Below are positions 3,336 through 30,860 of a stretch of 43,470 nucleotides of DNA, one piece after another; the first letter of the stretch is position 1; the number at the start of each line of letters is the position of its first letter. Location of the stretch: positions 1 to 43,470 of the forward strand of contig NZ_JALKFX010000044.1 in the NCBI RefSeq assembly GCF_023243045.1. The letters run 5' to 3'. The DNA comes from Frankia sp. AgB32 (GTDB lineage: Bacteria > Actinomycetota > Actinomycetes > Frankiales > Frankiaceae). The notes below the pieces were generated by a model that was given only the letters and a program-made list of their open reading frames with translations, was not told the origin of the DNA and did no database searches. Position numbers and translations under genes: made by a program.

Positions 3336-3881
3336 TCAGCACTCGGTGCCGGCGGTGCCCTGCTCGTCGGTGTGGACCTCGGACCAGTCGAGGCCGTCGA
3401 GGTTGACGACGATGGCCTCCTGGGTGGTGCGGGCGATGACGACGACGGCCTCGACGGAGGGGTCGGGGTTCTCCTCGCGGTGCGGGACGAACGGCGGGAC
3501 GAAGATGTAGTCACCAGGCGCGGTCTCGACGCGGGTCTCGACGGGCTCGTCGCCGTCGACGTCGAGGAACACGAACACCGGGTTGCCGGCGACGATGTAG
3601 ATCGCGGTCTCCGACGCGCCGTGGTGGTGGTTGCCGGACGCGGTCGACGCCGGCACGTGGGTCTGGCCCATCCACAGGTTGCGGGCGCCGACGGTCTTGC
3701 CGCTGATCGCCTCGCGGCGGCGCATGCCGGAGGTCTGCGTGGTGTCCTCGACGAGGCCGGCGGGCGCGACCCGGTGCAGCCGGGTGTGGAACGGGTCGAT
3801 GTCGGCGGGCAGCAGCACCCCGGCGGGGGAGCGGACGAACTCCCCGTCGGCGCTGCCGGCGGGGACATGGATCGCGGGCAT
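3336..3881 (-). CDS. Cupin-domain protein
   Basis: A 181-residue single-domain cupin. The ATG overlaps the stop codon of the upstream LysR gene (TGATG, one-base overlap), so the two are translationally coupled. The first cupin motif is visible as the histidine-rich GNHHHGASETAIYIVAG at about residues 83-99, with several histidines and a glutamate that could bind a metal. The second motif lies in PGDYIFVPPFVPHREENP. There is no signal peptide, so it should be cytoplasmic. The substrate is unknown. Cupins of this layout act as small-molecule dioxygenases, isomerases or ligand-binding proteins. Its pairing with a LysR regulator divergent from a flavin monooxygenase operon suggests a role in the same catabolic process, as an enzyme or as an effector-binding partner. 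Confidence 0.8.
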   Translation of the reverse strand: MPAIHVPAGSADGEFVRSPAGVLLPADIDPFHTRLHRVAPAGLVEDTTQTSGMRRREAISGKTVGARNLWMGQTHVPASTASGNHHHGASETAIYIVAGNPVFVFLDVDGDEPVETRVETAPGDYIFVPPFVPHREENPDPSVEAVVVIARTTQEAIVVNLDGLDWSEVHTDEQGTAGTEC

Positions 3882-4816
3882 CAGGCTCCCTTGGCCAGTT
3901 CGGTCGTCGGAACGCGGTTGAGCTTCGGCGCGGGATCGAGGTCCGCCGCTGCCGGCCCGGGCGCGGCCCGTTCGGCGAGCAGGCCGCGCAACGCCTCCGC
4001 GACCCGCCACGAGATCGTCTCCGCCAGGCCCTGGCGGGACCAGACGGCGAGCGGCAGCGGTCGGGGGGCCGGCAGGTCGTCGCGGGCGACGAGCCCCTCG
4101 GGAGTCTGGCTGAGCGTCGCCATCAACGCCACCCCCAGTCCCGCGCCGACGGCGGCCTGCACGCCGGCGAGCTGGATGGCCTCCGCGCCGATGACAGCCG
4201 GGATGGCGTGCGCCGAGAGCGTCTCCAGCGCCCGGGTGCGCAGCGCGCAGGGATGGTCGAAGGCCACCACCGGCACCGGATCCGGACCGGCGGGCCGCTG
4301 CCACAGCGGCGAGCTGTACCAGACGAGCTCCAGCTCGCCGATGTGGATGGCGCGCGGGTCGTCGGCCGGGCCGAGCAGCAGGGCGAGGTCGACGCCGCCG
4401 CCGTCGAGGCGTTCGCGCAGCTGGGAGCCGCGGTCGAGGCGGAACCGGATGGCGTGGTCGGGCAGCGAGCGTTCCAGCGCGGCGGCGAGGTGGGGCAGCA
4501 GTTGCGCCGCGGCGTGCTCCGTCGACCCGATGACGACCGACCGCTCGGCTCCGCGGCCGAACTCGCGCAGCGTCTCGTCGTGGATGGCGAGCAGGCGCCG
4601 CGCCTGGGCGAGCAGCCGCTCCCCGTCGGGGGTGAGCCGCGACCCGCGGCCCGCCCGCTCCACCAGGGTCCGCCCGGTCACCGCCTCCAGTCGGCGGACA
4701 TGCTGGCTCACCGCGGCCTGACTCAGGTGCAGCGAGGTGGCGGCCCGCTGGAACCCGCCGCAGTCCGCGACAGCGACGAGGCTGCGCAGCGGCGCGATGT
4801 CCAACGTATGGCCCAC
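3881..4816 (-). CDS. LysR-family transcriptional regulator
   Basis: A 311-residue regulator with the standard LysR layout. An N-terminal winged helix-turn-helix (about residues 8-66: LRSLVAVADCGGFQRAATSL, then LSQAAVSQHVRRLE) is followed by a LysR substrate-binding domain (about 92-290). The start is a GTG at 4816, giving MGHTLDIAPL. It is transcribed with the downstream cupin gene and divergently from the leader peptide and monooxygenase operon, the classic arrangement for a LysR protein that controls its neighbour and itself. A perfect 7-base inverted repeat lies 33 bases upstream (4849-4868) and is the best operator candidate. The likely inducer is a sulfur metabolite or the operon substrate, inferred from context only. 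Confidence 0.88.
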   Translation of the reverse strand: MGHTLDIAPLRSLVAVADCGGFQRAATSLHLSQAAVSQHVRRLEAVTGRTLVERAGRGSRLTPDGERLLAQARRLLAIHDETLREFGRGAERSVVIGSTEHAAAQLLPHLAAALERSLPDHAIRFRLDRGSQLRERLDGGGVDLALLLGPADDPRAIHIGELELVWYSSPLWQRPAGPDPVPVVAFDHPCALRTRALETLSAHAIPAVIGAEAIQLAGVQAAVGAGLGVALMATLSQTPEGLVARDDLPAPRPLPLAVWSRQGLAETISWRVAEALRGLLAERAAPGPAAADLDPAPKLNRVPTTELAKGA

Positions 4817-4848
4817 GCCGCCACACTACTCACAAATCCATAAGGAAA

Positions 4849-4868
4849 CGTGATGTTTCGTCATCACG
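4849..4868. promoter_or_regulatory. Inverted-repeat operator candidate between LysR and monooxygenase operon
   Basis: CGTGATG, six bases, CATCACG: a perfect 7-base inverted repeat in the 97-base gap between the LysR start and the leader-peptide start. An overlapping GAAAC-N5-GTTTC repeat lies at 4845-4859. The position fits an autoregulatory and activation site for the LysR protein encoded next to it. No binding evidence is available from sequence alone. Confidence 0.6.
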
Positions 4869-4913
4869 AAGAGTCGTTGGACATCGACACGCCCGCGCCG
4901 CATGCTCACTGAC

Positions 4914-4994
4914 ATGACCCAGCTGACCGCCGTGATGCTCACGTGTTGTCGCTGGCTGGACCTGGCCCGCGGCCAGGCAGCCCTCTGTAGCTGA
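4914..4994 (+). CDS. Cysteine-containing leader peptide (putative attenuator)
   Basis: A 26-residue ORF starting ATG at 4914, with an internal in-frame ATG at 4935 as a possible start. It contains VMLTCCRWLDLARGQAALCS and stops at 4994. This matches the pattern of the short actinobacterial 'putative leader peptides' found in front of sulfur-metabolism genes: MLTxRRxxDLxR followed by a C-terminal Ala-Leu-Cys. Three of the last sixteen residues are cysteine, including a Cys-Cys pair. Known relatives act in cis: ribosome stalling at cysteine codons under cysteine starvation changes expression of the genes downstream. Here the next gene is an NtaA/SnaA/DszA-type monooxygenase 284 bases downstream, which fits. 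No strong ribosome site is seen, so leaderless translation is possible. Confidence 0.7.
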   Translation: MTQLTAVMLTCCRWLDLARGQAALCS

Positions 4995-5088
4995 CCCCTC
5001 CGGCTGGCCGCGCCTCCCGGACGGGAACCGTGATTGTCACTCCGCGTGATCGGTCGCGGAGCGGTCGCCGCCCCCGGAACGACCCGCG

Positions 5089-5111
5089 GGCCCGCGCGAC
5101 CGTCGCGGGCC
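5089..5111 (+). promoter_or_regulatory. GC-rich hairpin in the operon leader
   Basis: Between the leader-peptide stop (4994) and the first monooxygenase (5279) lies a 284-base untranslated stretch with no convincing ORF. It contains a compact hairpin at 5089-5111, in which GGCCCGC pairs with the distal GCGGGCC and GCGAC pairs with GTCGC around a single base, with one possible bulge. No U-tract follows. It is a candidate alternative structure for attenuation by the cysteine leader peptide. The exact switching partners would need folding of the whole leader. Confidence 0.35.
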
Positions 5112-5278
5112 GACCGCCTCGCCGTCGGCCCGGCGCCTCCCCCTTCTGATCGCCACCGCCCGCCTGCCCGCCGGTCGCATGTGCCGGCGCCCGGGTCCGC
5201 CCCCATCACCGCCGTCCGGCCGTCCGCCCGTCCGCCACCGCCCGCAGGCCCGCCGCCCACCGTCTGGAAGGTCCCACC

Positions 5279-6748
5279 ATGTCTCGTCGCACCCTCACGC
5301 TGGGCGCCGTGCTTTTCGGCGTCGGCGGGCCCGGCCAGCATGCCACCTGGCTCAACCCCGAGATCCCGACCGACGCCAGCGTCGACGTCCGGTGGTACAT
5401 CGCCCGCGCGCAGCAGGCGGAGGCGGCGAAGTTCGACCACATCTTCATCGTCGACAGCCAGTTCATCACCGCCGACTCGCCGAACCACTATCTCAGCCGG
5501 CTCGAGCCGCTCACCCTGCTGTCCGCGGTCGCGGTGCACACCAGCCACATCGGCCTGGTCGGCACGATCACCACGTCCTACAACGAGCCGTTCAACGTCG
5601 CGCGCCGCCTCGCCTCGCTCGACCACATCAGCGGCGGGCGCGCCGGGTGGAACGTCGTCACCAGCGGCGACGCCGGCACGGCCGGCAACTACAGCCGCGA
5701 CGCGCACTTCGACTACCCGACCCGCTACGGCCGCGCGCTCGAACACGTACGCGTCGCCCAGGGACTGTGGGACTCCTACGAGGCCGACGCGTTCCCCCGC
5801 GACCGCGAGCGCGGCGCGTTCTTCGACCGCTCCCGCCAGCACGAGCTGAACCACCGCGGCGAGCACTTCTCCGTCGTCGGGCCGCTGAACCTGGAGCGCA
5901 CCCCGCAGGGGCAGCCCGTCATCTTCCAGGCGGGTGACTCCGAGGAGGGCCGTGACCTCGGCGCGAGCGTCGCCGAGGCCATCTTCACCCACGCCGAGAG
6001 CCTGGAGCAGGCGCAGGCCTTCCGCCGGGAGATGCGCGCCCGGGTGGCGGCCAAGGGCCGGGATCCGGAGAACCTGCTCATCGTCCCCGGCATCTTCCCG
6101 ATCATCGCGGACACCGACGAGCAGGCCCGGGCCAAGGAGGCCGCGGGCCGCGGCGAGCTCAGCTTCGAGCGCGCCCTGGCCGAGCTCGGCCGGCCCTTCG
6201 GCTGGCACGACTTCTCCCGCTACGACCTCGACGCCCCGTTCCCCGAGGTCGGCGACGCCGGCGAGCGCAGCTTCCGGACCCAGGCGGACGCGATCAAGAA
6301 GCTGGCCCGGGACAACGACCTCACCCTGCGCCAGGTCGTCGAGCACCAGCTGGGCGCCTCGCGCTCGCCGTTCGTCGGCTCGCCGCTGACGGTGGCGAAC
6401 GAGATCCAGCGCTGGTTCGACGCGGGCGCGTTCGACGGCATCAACATCATCGTGACCGCCCCGAGCGAGTTCGCCCGCTTCACCGACGAGGTCCTGCCGA
6501 TCCTGCGCGAGCGTGGCGTGGCGCGGACCGAGTACGAGTCCACGACGCTGCGCGGCAACCTCGGCCTGCCCGTCCCCGCCAACCGCCACACCGCCGCGCG
6601 GCAGCCGTCGCCGGCACCCGCAGAGCCCGCCGCCACGCCGCCCGCCGCCACGCCGCCCGCCGCCACGCCGCCGGCCGACGTCCACGGGTCCGCCGGTGTC
6701 GCTGCGGCCGCCGACGTCGCGGCCGTCCCGCCCGCGCTCGTGTCCTGA
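5279..6748 (+). CDS. NtaA/SnaA/DszA-family FMN-dependent monooxygenase (first copy)
   Basis: A 489-residue luciferase-like monooxygenase of the NtaA/SnaA/DszA/SoxA group. These use reduced FMN and oxygen to oxidise organosulfur or amine substrates such as dibenzothiophene sulfone, nitrilotriacetate or sulfonates. Family hallmarks are an N-terminal GGPGQHATW, FDHIFIVDSQF, SRLEPLTLLSAVA, EPFNVARRLASLDHISGGRAGWNVVTS, YGRALE and QPVIFQAGDSEEGR. The C-terminal FTDEVLPILRERG and LRGNLGLP motifs are typical of the family. Residues after about 440 form an Ala/Pro-rich tail. A weak ribosome site (GAAGG) precedes the ATG. It is the first structural gene after the cysteine leader peptide and is followed after 58 bases by a close paralogue. 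The substrate cannot be read from sequence. Confidence 0.85.
   Translation: MSRRTLTLGAVLFGVGGPGQHATWLNPEIPTDASVDVRWYIARAQQAEAAKFDHIFIVDSQFITADSPNHYLSRLEPLTLLSAVAVHTSHIGLVGTITTSYNEPFNVARRLASLDHISGGRAGWNVVTSGDAGTAGNYSRDAHFDYPTRYGRALEHVRVAQGLWDSYEADAFPRDRERGAFFDRSRQHELNHRGEHFSVVGPLNLERTPQGQPVIFQAGDSEEGRDLGASVAEAIFTHAESLEQAQAFRREMRARVAAKGRDPENLLIVPGIFPIIADTDEQARAKEAAGRGELSFERALAELGRPFGWHDFSRYDLDAPFPEVGDAGERSFRTQADAIKKLARDNDLTLRQVVEHQLGASRSPFVGSPLTVANEIQRWFDAGAFDGINIIVTAPSEFARFTDEVLPILRERGVARTEYESTTLRGNLGLPVPANRHTAARQPSPAPAEPAATPPAATPPAATPPADVHGSAGVAAAADVAAVPPALVS
6626..6670 (+). repeat. 15-base tandem repeat in the monooxygenase tail
   Basis: Three copies of a 15-base unit (cccgccgccacgccg) encode the PPAAT-type repeats in the C-terminal tail of the first monooxygenase. 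Similar sequence recurs just after its stop codon (about 6750-6776). It looks like replication slippage in an unconstrained linker. Confidence 0.75.
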
Positions 6749-6806
6749 CCGCGCCCGCCGCCCGCCGCCACGCCCGCATCCGACCAAGCCAGGAGGGAGA
6801 ACCGAG

Positions 6807-8240
6807 TTGACCCGCACGCTGCACCTCGCGCTGAGCGCCTACGGCGTCGGCGGCCCCGGCCAGCACGGCCTGTGGAAGGACCCGCGGGTCCCGGCCAACG
6901 CCAGCATCGACATCGACTACTACATCCGGCAGGCGAAGACCGCCGAGGCGGCACTGTTCGACGCGTACTTCATCGTCGACAGCCAGTTCATCAACGCCAC
7001 CTACCCGTCGCACTACCTCAACCGGCTCGAACCGCTGACGCTGCTGTCGGCGGTCGCGACGCACACCCGCCACCTCGGCCTGGTCGCCACCGCGAGCTCC
7101 ACGTACAACTCGCCGTTCAACCTCGCCCGGCGCCTGGCCTCCCTGGACCAGATCAGCCACGGCCGGGCCGGCTGGAACGTCGTGACCAGCTTCGACTCCG
7201 GCACGTCCCGCAACTACGGGCTCGACGAGCACCTCGACCACCCCACCCGCTACGGTCGGGCGCTGGAGTCCGTCGAGGTGGTGCGCGGCCTGTGGGACTC
7301 CTACGAGGACGACGCGTTCCCCGCCGACGTCGAACGGGACATGTTCCTCGACCCGTCCCGCCTGCACGCCCTCGACCACGTCGGCGAGCACTTCCGGGTC
7401 GCCGGACCGCTGAACGTGTCCCGCTCGCCGCAGGGCCAGCCGGTCATCTTCCAGGCCGGCGTGTCCGAGGAGGGCCGCGACCTGGCGGCCCGGGTCGCCG
7501 AGGGGATCTACGCGCCGGGCGGCTCGATCGAGGCGTCGCGGGCCTACTACCGCGACGTCAGGACCCGGGCCGCCGCGCTCGGGCGCGACCCGCGGCACGT
7601 GGTGATCCTCGTCGGCGCCGCGCCGGTGATCGCCGACAGCGACGAGGGCGCCTACGAGCTGTCCCGGGACATCTTCGAGGCCGACAACGACTTCGGCCGC
7701 AAGCTCGGCTTCCTCGGCCGTGCCTTCGGCGCCCACGACTTCTCCCGCCACGACCTCGACGCCCCGTTCCCCGACGTCGCGCACCTCGCCGAGCGCAGCG
7801 GGCGCACCCGCGGCCTGGAGATCGTCCGGCAGGCCCGAGAGGAGCAGCTGACCCTGCGCGAGGTCGTCGAGGCCGTCACCGAGTACACGCCGTCGCCGTT
7901 CACCGGCGCACCGGACACCGTCGCCGACGCCATCGAGGACTGGTTCCTCACCGACGCCGCCGATGGCCTCAACCTGCACTTCCGCACGCAGGACGACCTG
8001 GAGCGCTTCACCGGCGATGTGGTGCCGCTGTTGCAGCAGCGCGGGCTGTACCGCACCGAGTACGAGGCCGACACGCTGCGCGGCCACCTCGGCCTTCCGA
8101 TCCCCGCCAACCGCCACACCGTCGAACGCGAGCGCCGGGCCGCGGCGGCGCCGGTCGCGGCGGAGCGGACCGCGTCGTCGGCGTCGTCCGCGCTGGCGTC
8201 GGCGGCGCGGAGCACCGAACCCGAACCGGCAGGAGTCTGA
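6807..8240 (+). CDS. NtaA/SnaA/DszA-family FMN-dependent monooxygenase (second copy)
   Basis: A 477-residue paralogue of the upstream monooxygenase, collinear over its whole length. Shared motifs include VGGPGQHG, FIVDSQFI, LNRLEPLTLLSAVA, ARRLASLDQISHGRAGWNVV and QPVIFQAGVSEEGRDLA, ending with LRGHLGLPIPANRH. The start is a TTG at 6807 with an ideal AGGAGG 10 bases upstream. An in-frame extension back to 6513 exists but overlaps the first gene and is rejected. It should be a soluble flavin monooxygenase using FMNH2 from the flavin reductase at the operon end. Two tandem copies suggest successive oxidation steps or different substrates. Confidence 0.85.
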   Translation: MTRTLHLALSAYGVGGPGQHGLWKDPRVPANASIDIDYYIRQAKTAEAALFDAYFIVDSQFINATYPSHYLNRLEPLTLLSAVATHTRHLGLVATASSTYNSPFNLARRLASLDQISHGRAGWNVVTSFDSGTSRNYGLDEHLDHPTRYGRALESVEVVRGLWDSYEDDAFPADVERDMFLDPSRLHALDHVGEHFRVAGPLNVSRSPQGQPVIFQAGVSEEGRDLAARVAEGIYAPGGSIEASRAYYRDVRTRAAALGRDPRHVVILVGAAPVIADSDEGAYELSRDIFEADNDFGRKLGFLGRAFGAHDFSRHDLDAPFPDVAHLAERSGRTRGLEIVRQAREEQLTLREVVEAVTEYTPSPFTGAPDTVADAIEDWFLTDAADGLNLHFRTQDDLERFTGDVVPLLQQRGLYRTEYEADTLRGHLGLPIPANRHTVERERRAAAAPVAAERTASSASSALASAARSTEPEPAGV

Positions 8241-8245
8241 CCGCG

Positions 8246-9163
8246 ATGACCGACCCCCGCGTCACCGATCCGCTCGCCCTCGACCCACCACCGGGGCTGC
8301 GTACCCGGGGAACCGTGCTGGTCGTGCCGGGCCGCGGCGAGTCCACCGGCACCTACCGCCGGTTCGGCACCCGCCTCGCCGTCGACGCCTACCAGGTTCG
8401 GGTCCTGTCGGCGCCGACCCTCGACCAGGCCGATCTGCGTGGCTCGCTCGACCGCCTCGGCGCCCGGCTGAGCGCCGCCGTCACCGCCCTTGACGGCCCG
8501 GCGCCAGCGCTCGCCGCCGCGAATGCCCCCGCCGGCGGCGGAACGGGCGCCGCCGCGAGTGCCCCCACCGGTGGGGGAGTGCCCGCCGGTGGGGGAGCAT
8601 CTGCCTGCCGGGGGGCCGGCGCGGCCGGTGAGGGGCTGGTGCGCCCGCTCGTCCTGGTCGGCGCGGACAGCGGCGCCGCCGCCCTCGCGGCGCTCGCCGC
8701 GACAGTCCCGCCCGGCGCCCGCTGGTGGCCCGACGCACTCGTCCTGGCCGGCCTGCCCGGCCACGGCGCCCGCGTGATCGGCGACTGGGACAGCGAACTC
8801 GACGCGCGCACCCACTGTCCCGTGCACCGCGGCGCACTGCGTGACGATCCGGCCGTGCGACCCGGCGCGCTCGCCGAGGCCGTGCCCGACGCGCTGCTCG
8901 ACGCGGCCTACGGCAGCACCGCCGAGCTGCCCCAGCTCCTGCTCGTCGGCGACGCCGACCCGCTCGCCGACCGCGCCGCGCTCGCCCGGCTCGCGAAGGG
9001 ACTGCCCGCGGCCCGCCTCGCCGTCGTCCGCGGCGGGCACCGCGACGTCCTCAACGACCTGCAGCACCGCTCCGTCGCCGCCGAGATCGTGAGCTTCCTC
9101 GAGGTTCTGCGCGGCGGCCTGCCCCTCGTCCCGACCATCACGGTGGAGGCCAGCTCATGGTGA
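8246..9163 (+). CDS. Alpha/beta-hydrolase-like protein with GADSG elbow
   Basis: A 305-residue protein with an alpha/beta-hydrolase pattern. It has an N-terminal RGTVLVVPGRGESTGTYRRF (strand and oxyanion loop) and a predicted nucleophile elbow in LVGADSGAAAL. It also has LLLVGDADPLAD (acid residue) and RGGHRDVLND (histidine). In the usual G-x-Nu-x-G alignment the nucleophile is aspartate rather than serine, as in haloalkane dehalogenases and epoxide hydrolases. The alternative reading, serine in ADSGA, cannot be excluded. A glycine-rich low-complexity insertion sits before the elbow (about residues 92-125). The ATG is 5 bases after the second monooxygenase stop with AGGAG upstream, and the 3' end overlaps the flavin reductase by 7 bases. 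It probably processes a product or substrate of the monooxygenases. Confidence 0.75.
   Translation: MTDPRVTDPLALDPPPGLRTRGTVLVVPGRGESTGTYRRFGTRLAVDAYQVRVLSAPTLDQADLRGSLDRLGARLSAAVTALDGPAPALAAANAPAGGGTGAAASAPTGGGVPAGGGASACRGAGAAGEGLVRPLVLVGADSGAAALAALAATVPPGARWWPDALVLAGLPGHGARVIGDWDSELDARTHCPVHRGALRDDPAVRPGALAEAVPDALLDAAYGSTAELPQLLLVGDADPLADRAALARLAKGLPAARLAVVRGGHRDVLNDLQHRSVAAEIVSFLEVLRGGLPLVPTITVEASSW
8515..8612 (+). repeat. GC-rich imperfect repeat insertion within the hydrolase gene
   Basis: A cluster of imperfect units built around gtgccc-cc-ggtggggga, in frame, encodes the Gly/Ala/Pro-rich insertion APAGGG, APTGGG, VPAGGG. Each unit is itself partly palindromic (cccaccggtggg). It interrupts an otherwise well-conserved fold in a surface position, which suggests expansion of a mobile or slippage-prone palindromic unit. 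Confidence 0.55.
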
Positions 9164-9651
9164 GCCCGACGCAGGTGTTCGACCCCCGCCGGCTGCGGCA
9201 CGTCTTCGGCGCCTTCCCGTCCGGGGTCGCCGCCGTCGCCGCCGTCGTCGACGGTGCGCCGGTGGGGCTGCTGGTCAGCTCGTTCACGTCGGTGTCGCTC
9301 GACCCGCCGCTGGTGTCGCTGTGCGTCGCGCATGCGTCGTCGACCTGGCCGGTGCTGCGCGCCGCGCCCCGACTCGGCGTGAGCATCCTCAGCGCCGTGC
9401 AGGAACGCGCCGGGCGCCAGCTCGCCGGCCGCGGCGCCGACCGGTTCACCGAGCTTGCCTGGCGCGCCAGCGACGACGGTGCCGTGCTGCTCGACGGCGC
9501 CAGCGGCTGGCTGGAGACCAGCGTCGACCAGCAGGTCCGCGCCGGCGACCACGACATCATCGTGCTGCGCGTCCACGACCTCGACGCCGACCACGACGTC
9601 AGCCCGCTGGTCTTCCACGCCAGCCAGTTCCGCCGCCTCGGCCGCACCTGA
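9157..9651 (+). CDS. Flavin reductase family protein
   Basis: A 164-residue flavin reductase-like FMN-binding protein. It should reduce FMN with NAD(P)H and hand it to the two monooxygenases. Features are LRHVFGAFPSGVAAVAAV (N-terminal strand), the VSSFTSVSLDPPLVSLCV motif characteristic of the family, LGVSILSAVQE and a GDHDIIVLRVHDL C-terminal strand. Length is normal. The ATG overlaps the preceding gene (ATGGTGA, 7 bases), giving translational coupling. It is the last gene of the operon and is followed by a strong hairpin. The combination of paired monooxygenases and their reductase makes a two-component flavin monooxygenase system. Confidence 0.88.
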   Translation: MVSPTQVFDPRRLRHVFGAFPSGVAAVAAVVDGAPVGLLVSSFTSVSLDPPLVSLCVAHASSTWPVLRAAPRLGVSILSAVQERAGRQLAGRGADRFTELAWRASDDGAVLLDGASGWLETSVDQQVRAGDHDIIVLRVHDLDADHDVSPLVFHASQFRRLGRT

Positions 9652-26900: not shown

Positions 26901-28662
26901 TTTCCGCGCGGCGGGCCCACCTGTGTTCTCCCCACGCGGCGACCTGCTCGCCATCCGCGATCACCATGGCCAGCTGTGGATACATCACGGCACGAGCGGA
27001 CAGCTGATCAGCTGTGTCTCCTCGAACGCCGACCCGCGGGACCGGTGGGCGTTCCTGCCCGAGGGCAGCCTCGTCTCGATCAGCCCGGAGCGTTCCTTGC
27101 GAGTGTGGAGCGTCGCGACCGGTCAGCAGATGGCCCAGACATACCTGCCGCCCGACGGGGTGCTCGGGGTCCCGACGAGCTGGCGGTTCAACCCGGCGGA
27201 CACGTTCCGGGGGTTGATCGTTCACAAAGTGGAGAGCGCGCTCCGGCAGCTACAGGCCGAGCAGTCCGCAGCGAGGTACGCGATCTCGCCCCACGGTCGC
27301 TGGTTCGCGACCGCTGTGCGCCACGGCTGGATCCGGCTGGAGACCATGCCCGGCGGGCAGGAGGTCCTGCGGGCGGCGGACCGGGCCAGCCAGCGCTTCA
27401 CCGTGGACGGGGCGGCGGTGGTGACCGTGCGGAACACCGCCACGCGGTGCTTCGTCGACGTACGGCTCGTGCGCACCGGCCACCAGGTCTCCGTCCTGCC
27501 TGGCCGCGACCTGCCCACCGCCACCCTGGCCGACCCGCTATCACCCGCGGTGGCGCTGGCCGTGTCGGCGGACGGGCTGCTGGCCGTGCGGGACCTTCCC
27601 GGCCGCGGCGGTCCGGGCGCGGTCACCGTCCTGCGGGTGCTGCCGCGTGGCTGGCCGGAGCTGCCGGTGCACGGGCATCCGCTGGACATGGACCTGGACA
27701 GTGCCCTGAACGTCGAGATGCCGGGCGGCGTCACCGCGGCGGCGTTCTCCCCGGACGGGCGGACGCTGGTGCTCGGCGGCGCCCGCGGTGAGATCAGCGT
27801 CGTCGATCTGGCGTCGCGGCGCCGTCAGATCCCCACGGGCATGGCCGGTGCGGATGACGACGTCCACAGCGGAGTGCGCGCCCTCGCCTTCGCGCCGGGC
27901 GGCGCGGCCGTCACCGGTATCGAGGGGACCAGCCTGAGCACCTGGCTGCTGAGCACCGGGCGCCTGCTGGTCGAGTGGCAGCTCGCGTTCGACGCGACGA
28001 TCGCGTCCTACTCCCCGACGGGACACCTGCTCGCCGTGGCGGGGCGCGGCATCAGCCTGCTGCGTCTCGGAGCCGGTGCGCCCGGTGCGCCCGAGGCACT
28101 CGAGGCCCCCGATGAGCTGGAGATCACGGCGGTCGTGTTCGCGCCGCACGAGCGGCTGCTCGCGGCCGCCGGCCGGGAACAAGGCCGGCATCGGCTGTGG
28201 CTGTGGGACGTCCTCACGGGCCGCCGGGCCGCTGGCCTGGAGGTGTCGGCGCCCGTGTGCGATCTTGCCTTCTCACCGGGCGGGGGAGAGGTACTGGCTG
28301 CCGCCTGCGTCGATGGAACCCAGCGCTACTTTGACGTGGACTCGCTGGTGCCGGCGGCCACGGTGGTGCCCTTCGACGACGGCGGCCACGCGGTGCTGCT
28401 GCCCGACGGTTCCCATCGGATCGTCGGCGATCCGGGCGGCGCCGTGCGGTGGACGGCGCGGGGCCGGGAGTTCACCCTCCACGAACTCAACCTGCTGCTC
28501 GCGCCGGGCCGCCGGCTGGGAGCCGGTGACAGGATCCCGGCCCTGGCGGCCTTTCCCGCTCCCGAACCCGACGCGAGTTCCTGGGCTCACCCGCCCGGCC
28601 GTACGGACGACGAGCCCGACGCGGGCTCCTGGCTTCGCCTGCTCGGCCGTCGCCGTCGATGA
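23905..28662 (+). CDS. TIR-NACHT-pentapeptide-WD40-like NLR protein
   Basis: A 1585-residue multidomain protein. Residues 12-105 are a TIR domain (RRVFVSYTQDD, DLQDWHSVPGTNFVAWM, LLLSPAYLRSTWAASEW); E84 sits where TIR NAD-hydrolases have their catalytic glutamate. Residues 165-315 form an unassigned module ending in SLYVPQRYVLL. A NACHT-type STAND ATPase follows: Walker A GDFGHGKS (346-353), Walker B VVLLFDGFDE (416-425), TSR (455-457) and the helical part with FTHRSIMEYLVA. Residues 772-846 are pentapeptide repeats (DLRGRDLSGDDLRYADLRG). From about 860 to 1530 lie degenerate WD40-like repeats (SLRVWSVATG, WLWDVLTGRR). This is the plan of bacterial NLR-like immune proteins: a sensor C terminus, an oligomerising NACHT and a TIR effector that could deplete NAD. 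Phage defence is inferred. The GTG start has no clear ribosome site. Confidence 0.88.
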   Translation: MTSGDDTGVPARRVFVSYTQDDVGWARWIAWQLAAEGWQVDLQDWHSVPGTNFVAWMDACLAAADHVLLLLSPAYLRSTWAASEWQARYAPRRRTLVPVRVKLCEPVGLLGPLVRVDLYDQDEDGAAQALLRGLRGARDGHLVPTDQPPFPRATPASSPPAFPGLDAETFTGWVRDACRDRWPGAAVRLMPPAHAGEPRYLEVSGELDGERAVWPVGLCPGRVDADLVEAFRTGVHARYDARGQYVDSYLVHGAGLGVPELRRRAHRGGIRLRGLAEFEGRWDPHGYVLRQVSRLGSDGRYPPSLYVPQRYVLLDDPGEQAPTDDAFTAMLDWLDTESARFLLVLGDFGHGKSFLLRELARRLPEELPRLVPMLVELRALEKSHDVADLLALHLSKVREPEPRVPAVLRMLDRGRVVLLFDGFDELAQRVTFDRAAEHLRMILDAVSGSAKIVLTSRAQHFASDDQWRTAFGERVRQLAGSRQIRLLDFDASQIRDYLVRLFALAEPDRAAAERRADERLRLIHDLRDLVDLSTNPRMLSFIAELPEADLRAARAADGTLSSADLYATLVGRWLRFEADRRRVTPGSHQSLDEAQLRTAVDALAMALWESDTDAVDQSELTETVRTTLTDLSERRMSVAEAAFAVGSSSLLRRGDDDRFAFTHRSIMEYLVAATIAAHFSEGRTDTSTPLHDRPLTELMIDFLVGLADPEQLRSWARDALRHHDEAIVEGEEDGDDWEMPLPRLLRGSVQAARDNALALGHRLGFPLGAVHLEGQDLRGRDLSGDDLRYADLRGVNLAGQRLHGIDLTGADLRGADLRDAWLVRPVLTGARLADSRWDRAVLLEPVLDDDQRDAPELATAILGGRDEPRAEVRGWADLDGDPVLAFSADETMLAVAAGATVALFDVPRLDPRGEVRHEVAVRALAFTGADQLAVVGVDDEAVVRELRTGQVVHRWPIGAGAAVSATFAADGACLAVATRGEVTVYEVAAGRPRVVWTPPFRAAGPPVFSPRGDLLAIRDHHGQLWIHHGTSGQLISCVSSNADPRDRWAFLPEGSLVSISPERSLRVWSVATGQQMAQTYLPPDGVLGVPTSWRFNPADTFRGLIVHKVESALRQLQAEQSAARYAISPHGRWFATAVRHGWIRLETMPGGQEVLRAADRASQRFTVDGAAVVTVRNTATRCFVDVRLVRTGHQVSVLPGRDLPTATLADPLSPAVALAVSADGLLAVRDLPGRGGPGAVTVLRVLPRGWPELPVHGHPLDMDLDSALNVEMPGGVTAAAFSPDGRTLVLGGARGEISVVDLASRRRQIPTGMAGADDDVHSGVRALAFAPGGAAVTGIEGTSLSTWLLSTGRLLVEWQLAFDATIASYSPTGHLLAVAGRGISLLRLGAGAPGAPEALEAPDELEITAVVFAPHERLLAAAGREQGRHRLWLWDVLTGRRAAGLEVSAPVCDLAFSPGGGEVLAAACVDGTQRYFDVDSLVPAATVVPFDDGGHAVLLPDGSHRIVGDPGGAVRWTARGREFTLHELNLLLAPGRRLGAGDRIPALAAFPAPEPDASSWAHPPGRTDDEPDAGSWLRLLGRRRR

Positions 28663-28687: not shown

Positions 28688-28777
28688 TCAGGACCAGGCC
28701 GGGCAGGACAGGGCCCGTCAGGACAGGGCCCGTCAGGACAGGGCCCGTCAGGACAGGGCCCGTCAGGACCGTGCCCG
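28688..28777. repeat. 15-base tandem repeat, six units
   Basis: Six adjacent copies of tcaggacagggcccg; the three units 28718-28762 are identical, and the units before and after differ by a few bases. It starts 26 bases after the stop of the TIR-NACHT gene, in a stretch (28663-28969) with no convincing gene. The period is a multiple of three, so it reads through in both strands as QDRAR or PDGPC repeats. No start or family motif supports coding. Confidence 0.85.
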
Positions 28778-28969: not shown

Positions 28970-29212
28970 TCAGGAACCCCCCGTCGCGGCGTGGGTCGCC
29001 CCGCTGCCGCTCCACACCGTCGACCCGGCGGGACTCCACGTCCCCGGGCTGGCGGCGTCCGAGGTACCGGTGGAACCGGTGGTCGTCGTGGCCGCCGGGG
29101 CGGTGTGTTCCTGGGCCGGCATGCCGAAGCCGATCATGCCGGCGGCCGCGATGGCGGCCAGTCCGGCCGTGACGGGACCGACCCGCCGTGGTCCCTGCTC
29201 TCGTGTGGCCAC
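28970..29212 (-). CDS. Small secreted or membrane-anchored protein, unknown function
   Basis: An 80-residue protein read from a GTG at 29212, with GGGAGG six bases upstream. The N terminus has a basic stretch (ATREQGPRRVG), then a hydrophobic segment (PVTAGLAAIAAAGMIGFGM) and an Ala/Thr/Ser/Gly-rich tail (APAATTTTGSTGTSDAASPG). This resembles a signal peptide followed by a short flexible secreted chain. No family is recognised. The good ribosome site and signal-like start support it as real. It could also be a membrane-anchored peptide. Confidence 0.5.
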   Translation of the reverse strand: MATREQGPRRVGPVTAGLAAIAAAGMIGFGMPAQEHTAPAATTTTGSTGTSDAASPGTWSPAGSTVWSGSGATHAATGGS

Positions 29213-29347
29213 CGGCAACCTCCCACCGTCGGCGCCCCGGAACGGAGCGGATGATGACCGCAGTGGGAGCCGCGGCTGTGGGGTGGCTGTGAGCTGGCGT
29301 TGCGTCGGCCAGGTACAGCGCGCCGCGGGCCGGCGGCCGGGCGGGGG

Positions 29348-29767
29348 TCAGGCCCAGAAGGTCGGCGCCGCGGCGTCGATCTCGCGGGCGGACTGTTCGT
29401 AGCCGGCGGCCACGGGCGCCAGCACGTCGGTGCCCAGCCGGCGGATGACCTCGGCGTTGAGCCGGGCCCGGGCGGCCACGACCAGGGCGAAGGCCGCCGG
29501 GTCACCGTCGTGGCCGTAGGCGTCGAGCAGCAGCCGCAGCCGCCGGGGCCGATCGTCGACGTCGGTGAGACCGGCGCCCGCCACCGCGCCCGGGGTCAGC
29601 AGCGGCACCCAGGTCAGCGCGGTGAACGCCAGGTCGAGCTCGCGCGAGGACGGGCCGGCGGCCGGGGTCCACGGCCCGGTTCCCCGGCGCACCGTGTCAC
29701 CCACCCGCACCCCGCCGACGTGACGCCCGCCCGGCAGGGGCAGCTCGGTTTCGAGATCGTCAACCAT
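29348..29767 (-). pseudogene. Aminoglycoside-phosphotransferase-like (APH fold) gene with internal deletion
   Basis: The N terminus (LPGGRHVGGVRVGDTVRR, GTGPWTPA) is the start of a phosphotransferase of the APH-like family. After GPWTPAAGPSSRE the sequence jumps straight to LDLAFTALTWVPLL and DRPRRLRLLLDAYG, which belong after the catalytic and DFD-type metal motifs near the C terminus. About 120-150 residues are missing, including the catalytic HxD and metal-binding residues, while the frame is kept. The remaining 139 residues cannot phosphorylate anything. I infer an in-frame deletion, or a collapsed assembly. Confidence 0.7.
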
Positions 29768-29906
29768 GAGTGAGGTGTAGCCGTGCGGGCCGCCGGCGAC
29801 AACCGGATATCGCGCGGGTGAGGTGGCCGTCGCCGTGCCGCGCGGAATGTCGGACCCCGGTGGCACGCTGGTTCCAGCACCGGGACACCACGGGCGGAGG
29901 ATGCGG

Positions 29907-30384
29907 ATGGGCAGCGGGAACCGGTCGGCCGGCCTCGAGTCGGTGGACTGTGCGGAGACCTTCATCGCGGTGGCCGAGGACTGTCCGGTCGAGGCGGGGA
30001 CGGAGCCACCGCGTCATCCTGAGCGCCCGTCGATCGCCGCCCGGACCTACGAGATGATCGCCGCGCAGCCCTACCGGTTCACGTCGGCGGACGTGCTGTT
30101 CGGCGTGTTCGCCGATCGCACGGGCATCCCGGCGCCGGAGCGGGTCGCCGCCCGCGCCGCCTTCTTCGCGCGCGGCCAGGCGTGCCTGCGAGCCAGCGAT
30201 CTCGGCCGGCGTTACGGCTGGGGGCTGCACGCCGACGCCGCCGGCCGCCTCGCGCTCTACGGCCGGGAGACACCCGAGTACGCCGCGTTCCTCGCCGGTC
30301 GGCCCCCGGCGGGCGCCGAGGGCGCGGGGCCGGTCCAGGTCGTCCGGGCGATGCGGCGCAGCCGCGCGGGCAGACCCGCCGGGC
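29907..30384 (+). CDS. DUF6157-type protein, 3' end disturbed by poly-G
   Basis: The ATG at 29907 has GGAGG six bases upstream. The protein starts NRSAGLESVDCAETFIAVAE and contains PSIAARTYEMIAAQPYRFT, SADVLFGVFADR and ARAAFFARGQACLRASDLGR. It ends in YGWGLHADAAGRLALYG and VQVVRAMRRSRAG. This is the pattern of a short conserved family (DUF6157) of about 140-150 residues, function unknown. The family normally ends soon after the AMRxxRA motif. Here no stop follows; the frame enters a G-run at 30385, so the true 3' end is missing or corrupted. The protein is soluble, with no signal peptide. Confidence 0.65.
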
Positions 30385-30418
30385 GGGGGGGGGGGGGGGC
30401 CCCGCGGGGGGGGGGGGG
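30385..30418. other. Poly-G junction, probable sequence artefact
   Basis: Fifteen G (30385-30399), then CCCCGC and thirteen G (30406-30418). Two convergent genes both lose their 3' ends exactly here: the DUF6157 protein lacks its stop, and the AraC-type regulator lacks its C-terminal half. Such runs are not seen elsewhere except at 41793 and at the window end. The simplest reading is missing sequence bridged by low-quality G calls rather than real biology. Confidence 0.7.
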
Positions 30419-30424
30419 CGCGGG

Positions 30425-30860
30425 GGCCGGCGCCGGGTGTCCCGGCGGGAACGTGGACCACCTCCGGCAGCACGGTGAACAGCGGCGTGGTGACGGCGGG
30501 ATCGTGCCGGTAGGAGGCGCACAGGATCCTGGTCCGCGCCGGTCCGGGCCCGACGTCGAGGCGACCGCCGGCGGCGAGCGCGGCCTTCGACGCGGCGTGG
30601 TCGAACGGCTCCAGCGGGCCCGCCGGATCACCGGCCAGCCCGTGTTCGGACCCGGTGGGCAGGAGGACGACGTCGCCGGGCATGAGCCGCAGCGGGGGTT
30701 GGCCGGGCAGGCGCAGCCAGGCGGTGCCGGCGGTGACGGCGTGGAAGGCCGCCGCGGAGATCTGGAACAGCCGCAACCCCCACGGATCGCCGGCGTGGAC
30801 CGTGGCCGCGACGGTTCCGCGCACCCCGGCGACGCTCAGCACGTCGGCGAGCAGATCCAT
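30425..30860 (-). pseudogene. AraC-family regulator, N-terminal cupin half only
   Basis: From the ATG at 30860 the protein reads MDLLADVLSVAGVRGTVAAT, then the cupin-like sensory part PWGLRLFQISAAAFHAVTAG, LRLMPGDVVLLPTGSEH and ILCASYRHDPAVTTPLF. This is the N-terminal ligand-binding domain of an AraC regulator of the type with a cupin_6 domain. After VVHVPAGTPG the sequence ends in the poly-G junction. The rest of the sensor and the two helix-turn-helix motifs (about 150 residues) are absent. It may be a genuine truncation or an assembly gap. It is divergent from the SDR at 30999, which would be its natural target. Confidence 0.7.

Follow-up and report, generated by a model that had tools for sequence, protein, structure and literature searches.

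A probable cysteine-responsive leader peptide, unseen by curated models, ahead of a YtnJ-like monooxygenase operon in Frankia

Leaderless cysteine-rich leaders were reportedly described in mycobacteria by Canestrari et al. in 2020. Curated NCBIfam models now cover leaders of this kind: NF042933 (leader_Ms5788A) and NF042936 (leader_Ms4527A) for the mycobacterial forms, with a cut-off of 45 bits, and NF042934 (cis_reg_atten) for putative leader peptides of actinobacteria, with a cut-off of 27 bits. Leaders of the Ms5788A type in mycobacteria are reported to respond to cysteine (PMC13236596, PMC9094748), and Shell et al. 2015 (PMC4633059) name Msmeg_5788 as the counterpart of cysA2 in M. smegmatis. 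Earlier work set out cysteine leaders without terminators and offered Rho-dependent termination as a weak prediction (Seliverstov et al. 2005, PMC1262725). Judged by titles, our literature search found no paper on leaders with the NF042934-type motif and, judged by title and the start of the abstract, none on cysteine leader peptides in Frankia.

Here we describe a 26-codon ORF in a 43,470-nt stretch of DNA from Frankia sp. AgB32 (the window), which in all likelihood governs an organosulfur or cysteine-salvage operon through cysteine-responsive ribosome-mediated attenuation, a conclusion drawn from sequence comparison. The leader resembles those of NF042934 in its frame, LTxxRxxDLxRxxxAxC, in the TGT codon at its conserved Cys and in the C-rich, G-poor spacer behind it; it differs from them in an extra Cys pair and in having RWLD or CCRWLD where they have RRHVDL or RRAVDL. 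Like the mycobacterial leaders of NF042933 and NF042936, which stand ahead of sulfur genes, it is a short ORF that is predicted to be leaderless and that places Cys codons close to its stop. Unlike them, leaders of the window type have no run of Cys, mostly three Cys codons (one of them invariant) and a YtnJ-like monooxygenase cluster downstream. With the leaders of Seliverstov et al. 2005 it has in common that a Cys leader stands without a terminator, but the genes and genera are others, and those leaders show several Cys codons in a row close to the stop (PMC1262725).

In the mechanism that we favour, a leaderless mRNA would begin at the ATG of the 26-codon ORF, so that a ribosome would translate the leader once transcription begins. 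A shortage of cysteine would be sensed by ribosomes stalling on the leader, and sulfur scavenging would be switched on; with plentiful cysteine, the ribosome would run off the leader and expression would be damped. The damping may well act through the exposed C-rich, G-poor spacer, at which Rho would terminate transcription, the alternative being translational sequestration. The leader system also bears on two wider questions: whether the sensitivity of cysteine attenuators depends on codon identity (TGT over TGC), on the nascent peptide or on the two together, and whether Rho takes the part of hairpins where genomes are GC-rich.

The leader ORF and its conservation

The ORF at positions 4914–4994 of the forward strand encodes MTQLTAVMLTCCRWLDLARGQAALCS, followed by a TGA stop; its Cys codons, 11, 12 and 25, are all TGT. 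A reading of the sequence alone (the sequence-only reading) had pointed to this ORF and credited it with a Cys-Cys pair and a C-terminal Cys. The ORF and the pair, residues 11 and 12, stand; the last Cys does not occupy the C terminus, Cys25 being penultimate and Ser the last residue. The ORF is a real gene, and chance is excluded. Over codons 2–26, pN/pS is 0.35 in frame versus 0.78 and 1.73 in the other frames (16 equal-length leaders, with L022, L024 and L025 left out of the set of 19 on account of length), and over codons 9–26 it is 0.20 versus 1.03 and 2.50 (16 distinct leaders), which places the peptide under purifying selection. Synonymous change is seen in the leader alignment at the codons of L15, D16, A18 and R19. 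Across an alignment of 18 diverse leaders drawn from both the RWLD and the NF042934 groups (alignment A2), five of which match NF042934, residues L9, D16, R19 and C25 are invariant, and the window leader shows the arrangement LTxxRxxDLxRxxxxxC towards its stop.

We searched for the first monooxygenase of the operon in 58 genomes, the window's own included, and found a homolog at E 1e-30 or better in 36. Close orthologs (81–88% identity, tblastn) occupy 18 loci in 18 other genomes. Absence of the ORF ahead of orthologous operons, which the sequence-only reading had named as the observation that would count against it, was not what we encountered: the leader precedes the monooxygenase in all 18 close orthologs (57 other genomes searched), 13 of these leaders having been picked up by an initial pattern scan and the other five (L018, L019, L022, L023 and L027) by reading the sequence.

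A wider set of 80 named homolog loci gives the taxonomic range. Within the 500 nt ahead of the gene, the strict motif is present at 14 of 15 Frankiaceae loci and at 18 of 33 other actinobacterial loci, one of which (L109) has just 212 nt of upstream sequence; the genera beyond Frankiaceae are Amycolatopsis, Actinokineospora, Kineosporia, Nocardioides and Pseudonocardia, together with metagenome-assembled genomes. It is found within 500 nt upstream at none of the 31 usable non-actinobacterial loci (32 in the set, with L146 starting inside the gene). Over 100 dinucleotide shuffles, the mean counts were 0.00, 0.01 and 0.00 for the Frankiaceae, other actinobacterial and non-actinobacterial loci, respectively. 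The motif is unmatched at 15 of the 33 other actinobacterial loci. Two of these, from Kineosporia, have shortened leaders of 13 codons, MTRTATVTLTGCR and MTRTALANPANCR, that retain the Cys-Arg-stop end; the remaining 13 gave no clear leader by motif search, with degenerate look-alikes at L086 and L102.

Some leaders closer to the window also depart from the standard form. That of Protofrankia (L022/L080) is shortened, with RSHC at its C terminus. Two Parafrankia leaders (L024 and L025) read HLIDL[TA]CRGAAVCRGAA.RCR, with a repeated CRGAA unit and extra Cys codons near the stop; they have lost RWLD, and the spacer behind them is not C-rich. Distant homologs of the monooxygenase (39–44% identity; 11 loci, L028–L038) showed no leader in a 700-nt motif scan, a weak negative because the same narrow pattern had missed 5 of the 18 close-ortholog leaders.

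A leader profile, at E < 1e-13, has matches at the monooxygenase operon in at least 14 of 40 genomes, the window's own included, with up to 150 candidates scored in each genome. Among the matches listed, those of this strength lie solely beside that operon, one per genome, with the exception of one genome (G004), in which a second copy of the leader stands ahead of the second monooxygenase. A sister form, LLTCRRCIDFGRAESSRCR, is present in seven genomes, again including that of the window, and in six of the seven a luciferase-like monooxygenase gene follows 0.3–1.7 kb downstream on the same strand.

The operon and its link to sulfur

Downstream of the leader, on the forward strand, lie genes for two luciferase-like monooxygenases (LLMs) of the NtaA/DmoA family TIGR03860, at 5279–6748 and 6807–8240; for the second, the TTG start at 6807 was chosen by eye and searches used 6513–8240 or 6801–8240. 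They are followed by an alpha/beta-hydrolase-like protein with a weak Hydrolase_4 match (8246–9163) and by a flavin reductase (Flavin_Reduct, 9157–9651) that is the likely electron supply for the LLMs. A LysR-family regulator is encoded divergently, on the reverse strand, at 3881–4816.

For both LLMs the nearest relative with a solved structure is B. subtilis YtnJ/MoxC, which scores 422 and 374 bits; 3sdo, a structure named nitrilotriacetate monooxygenase, comes next, and DszA ranks lower. The leader stands upstream of such a YtnJ/MoxC-like LLM operon at 19 of 19 loci. In its LLMs the operon resembles B. subtilis YtnJ/MoxC and salvage of the CmoJ type; it differs in its leader, a type that the 31 usable non-actinobacterial homolog loci lack. 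We take CmoJ and YtnJ to be the same protein. The function of YtnJ is called unknown in one report (PMC5819316). According to another, CmoJ, a homolog of DszA and YxeK, cleaves alkylcysteine sulfoxides and salvages cysteine from S-alkylcysteine (PMC10863075).

Because a Cys leader occurs together with YtnJ/MoxC-like LLMs, organosulfur use or cysteine salvage appears to be the likeliest role of the operon, and the likeness to YtnJ/MoxC adds support to the assignment to organosulfur use that had been made from the leader. Regulation would here serve as evidence that links a poorly annotated flavin monooxygenase operon, which Frankia shares with further actinobacteria of the soil, to the acquisition of sulfur or cysteine. 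The scanned operon genes of the window include no salvage acetylase or deacetylase, and the LLM family also holds nitrilotriacetate- and EDTA-type monooxygenases, which do not necessarily serve sulfur. The orthologous operon of one Frankia relative (L039) carries, between its two LLM genes, an ABC transporter of the Opp/Dpp type that is missing from the window operon; another relative (L045) encodes an SsuA-type binding protein nearby. Several of the other Frankiaceae operons in the group L039–L044 appear to resemble L039 in the sizes and order of their ORFs.

Relation to the curated leader families

The window peptide hit no NCBIfam family in hmmscan at E up to 10, and its place is absent from the NF042934 search of the genome at E up to 10, among the best 150 of 265 candidates. 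It falls below the 27-bit cut-off of NF042934 and has no match to NF042933 or NF042936. Ten further RWLD and sister leaders were scanned singly against NCBIfam; nine had no match of any kind, and the tenth (L107) matched the Ms5788A model weakly (E 0.018, 14.7 bits against the cut-off of 45). Besides the window peptide, eight RWLD-type leaders thus scanned gave no NF042934 match at E up to 10. Because the window peptide and the scanned RWLD relatives fail NF042934, we read the RWLD leader as a divergent new branch of an already known kind of regulator, one that the curated leader-peptide models miss. It has the skeleton of the NF042934 leaders and probably works as they do; by the curated cut-off it is not a member.

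The sequence-only reading had also appealed to a sulfur-responsive leader motif of actinobacteria, and rightly so: at E 1e-5, 75 of the 118 Actinomycetes genomes sampled contain NF042934 leaders, and sulfur genes lie downstream of many that we looked at. In the window genome, NF042934 matches eight other places at E 1e-3 or better, five of them above the cut-off, and sulfur genes follow two of them. The only plainly sulfur genes in the survey of neighbours are a sulfite reductase and TauD; at five of the seven loci with a scanned gene, the downstream genes have no certain sulfur role (two family-5 solute-binding proteins, a 2OG-Fe(II) oxygenase, a transcriptional regulator domain and a carbonic-anhydrase-like protein). 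In this survey L004 gave no ORF, and at L006 we scanned TauD, the second ORF, and passed over the first, of 82 aa. Elsewhere, ten loci picked from 30 are followed by rhodanese (four), sulfite reductase (three), an LLM (one), an NMT1 binding protein (one) and CbiX (one); the ten come from 15 of the 30 listed, and at L152 and L155 the second ORF was scanned, not the first (165 and 173 aa). The polycysteine leader at L152, which precedes a 277-residue rhodanese, scores 56.3 bits with leader_Ms5788A and 44.5 bits with NF042934.

The two groups meet at the enzyme itself. A Pseudonocardia leader ahead of a homologous LLM (L103) reaches 27.9 bits with NF042934, above the cut-off of 27, and another (L101) stays just under it at 25.3 bits. 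Since L103 passes, Pseudonocardia has a recognised leader at the very site, ahead of the same enzyme, where Frankia has an RWLD leader.

On a contig of the window genome (G000:C257), two cysteine leaders of different subtypes lie back to back, at 28377–28433 on the reverse strand and 28710–28775 on the forward strand (L008, L071 and L182). One precedes genes for a carbonic-anhydrase-like protein and a methyltransferase, the other an LLM at 29075–30502.

Cysteine codons, promoter and output step

Of 32 window-type leaders, 30 use TGT for the conserved Cys, versus 43 of 281 background Cys codons (15%) in neighbouring Frankiaceae ORFs. The conserved Cys is also TGT in 21 of 26 parsed NF042934 leaders versus 27 of 163 in the background, a count in which four of 30 loci (L161, L162, L164 and L166) could not be parsed and the 'conserved' Cys is ambiguous within Cys runs, and in all eight NF042934 peptides of the window genome. 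The shared ancestry of the leaders, together with the choice of background ORFs by high GC3, makes these codon tests overstate significance. At the remaining Cys positions of these leaders the bias is smaller (42 TGT to 20 TGC in the window type, 17 to 39 in NF042934), and nine window genes chosen by coordinates have 6 TGT versus 24 TGC. The bias at the conserved position suggests that the decoding of this codon is what matters, and codons and family together point to cysteine as what the window leader would sense.

Upstream, a −35 element, TTGGAC (4877–4882), and a −10 element, CATGCT (4901–4906), lie on the forward strand with the −10 element 18 nt past the −35 and 7 nt ahead of the leader ATG. 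In 29 of 32 leaders TTGGAC stands 37 or 38 nt ahead of the ATG. A −10 hexamer resembling CATGCT lies 12–13 nt before the ATG; a script located it in 28 of the 32, and L015 and L093 were added by eye. The 32 leaders, used alike for promoter, codons, spacer skew and the leader–Shine-Dalgarno swap described below, are a set without the Pseudonocardia leaders. Because the spacing from promoter to ATG is fixed, transcription in the window probably begins at the leader ATG or right beside it, which would give a leaderless mRNA.

Between the leader stop and the first LLM lies an untranslated spacer of 284 nt (4995–5278, forward strand) with a C content of 0.50 and a G content of 0.31, a candidate Rho-loading region. 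Its C skew is at the 99th percentile of window segments. The mean C skew of 19 spacers is 0.148, and that of 66 intergenic regions taken as controls is 0.025 (p 1e-4; the leader sequences are phylogenetically related, and p-values here overstate independence); leader spacers were left in among the controls, which makes this contrast conservative. Past the stop, C outnumbers G in 30 of 32 window-type spacers. Behind NF042934 leaders, the first 100 nt show the same excess in 24 of 26, and it is higher there than in the upstream or coding region. A C-rich, G-poor post-leader region, which Rho-dependent attenuation of the tna type would call for, is the rule, with L024 and L025 lacking it. That this composition recurs suits Rho loading. 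The output step itself is out of view, because there is neither a conserved terminator or antiterminator nor covariation between leader and Shine-Dalgarno sequence; from composition, we would put Rho at its centre with a confidence that falls a little short of even.

Attenuation through translation would place the output step elsewhere: at high cysteine, the vacated leader RNA would fold onto the Shine-Dalgarno sequence of the first LLM (GGAAGG, 5266–5271, forward strand), and a stalled ribosome would keep the site open. A mechanism of this kind is reported for mycobacterial cysteine genes, according to work cited in PMC13236596, and the short spacers outside Frankia (59 nt at L088 and 38 nt at L101), short for classical Rho loading, fit it better than Rho. 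The mean probability of pairing between leader and Shine-Dalgarno sequence reaches at least 0.37 in 5 of 19 folds, but is below 0.2 in the other 14. Compensatory pairing between the two, first hinted at by L023 and L027, was dropped after a swap across 32 leaders, in which a leader paired with its own Shine-Dalgarno sequence no better than with a swapped one (permutation p 0.30); we regard this variant of the output step as possible and rather doubtful. An intrinsic terminator and antiterminator built on the GC hairpin that the sequence-only reading had noted is far less probable. That hairpin exists, with an 8-bp stem GGCCCGCG-N7-CGCGGGCC at 5089–5111 on the forward strand, and it overlaps a 9-bp hairpin at 5106–5132 such that the two are mutually exclusive, a stem of 9 bp being reached by about 5% of 60 shuffles. 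However, no T-run follows either of them, and the 19 ortholog spacers compared have no perfect hairpin common to all: most of the best stems are at shuffle level, and those that recur are confined to two groups of close relatives (L013–L015; L016, L020 and L021). Nor do the common 6- and 7-mers of the 19 spacers leave the range of 20 shuffles, the top one, CGTCGCC (12 of 19), being at its upper edge and equalled by the best shuffle, and positions 4700–5400 match no Rfam family at E up to 1. The hairpin is thus neither conserved nor terminator-like.

Other explanations concern what the peptide does. The nascent RxxDLxR segment may stall the ribosome besides the Cys codon and set its sensitivity, as an arrest peptide would; this would be a layer added to attenuation and compatible with it. 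Because L9, D16, R19 and C25 are invariant in A2 and the codons of L15, D16, A18 and R19 change synonymously, peptide residues outside the sensor codon appear to be selected. Against this, the segment is lost in the two Kineosporia leaders and altered in the two Parafrankia leaders, and the TGT bias at Cys25 points to decoding, so that we hold an arrest function only tentatively. Purifying selection would likewise be expected if the ORF encoded a small functional protein acting in trans, and an unregulated upstream ORF that delivers ribosomes to the operon would be a related case. Both are improbable: the strong profile matches are confined to the LLM operon among the matches listed, save the second copy in G004 before a second LLM, and the terminal Cys sits at the stop, as it does in attenuators. 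Reading the leader as a cysteine-responsive attenuator, one may also imagine a single ancient actinobacterial cysteine leader in which TGT, kept in the face of a strong preference for TGC, is a tuned slow-decoding sensor backed by the RxxDLxR nascent segment, a C-rich Rho window stands in for a hairpin switch, and the RWLD arm, invisible to current models, is dedicated to YtnJ-like cysteine-salvage enzymes; this wider picture is speculative.

Two features of the DNA around the leaders may be added. The spacer of Parafrankia colletiae (L010) contains a 22-bp perfect hairpin that is absent in the other 18 spacers and is perhaps a mobile repeat. In the window, a 7-bp inverted repeat, CGTGATG-N6-CATCACG (4849–4868), sits just ahead of the leader promoter, on the side of the divergent LysR gene, with similar half-sites recognised by eye upstream of the 19 leaders; it may be the operator of the LysR-family regulator.
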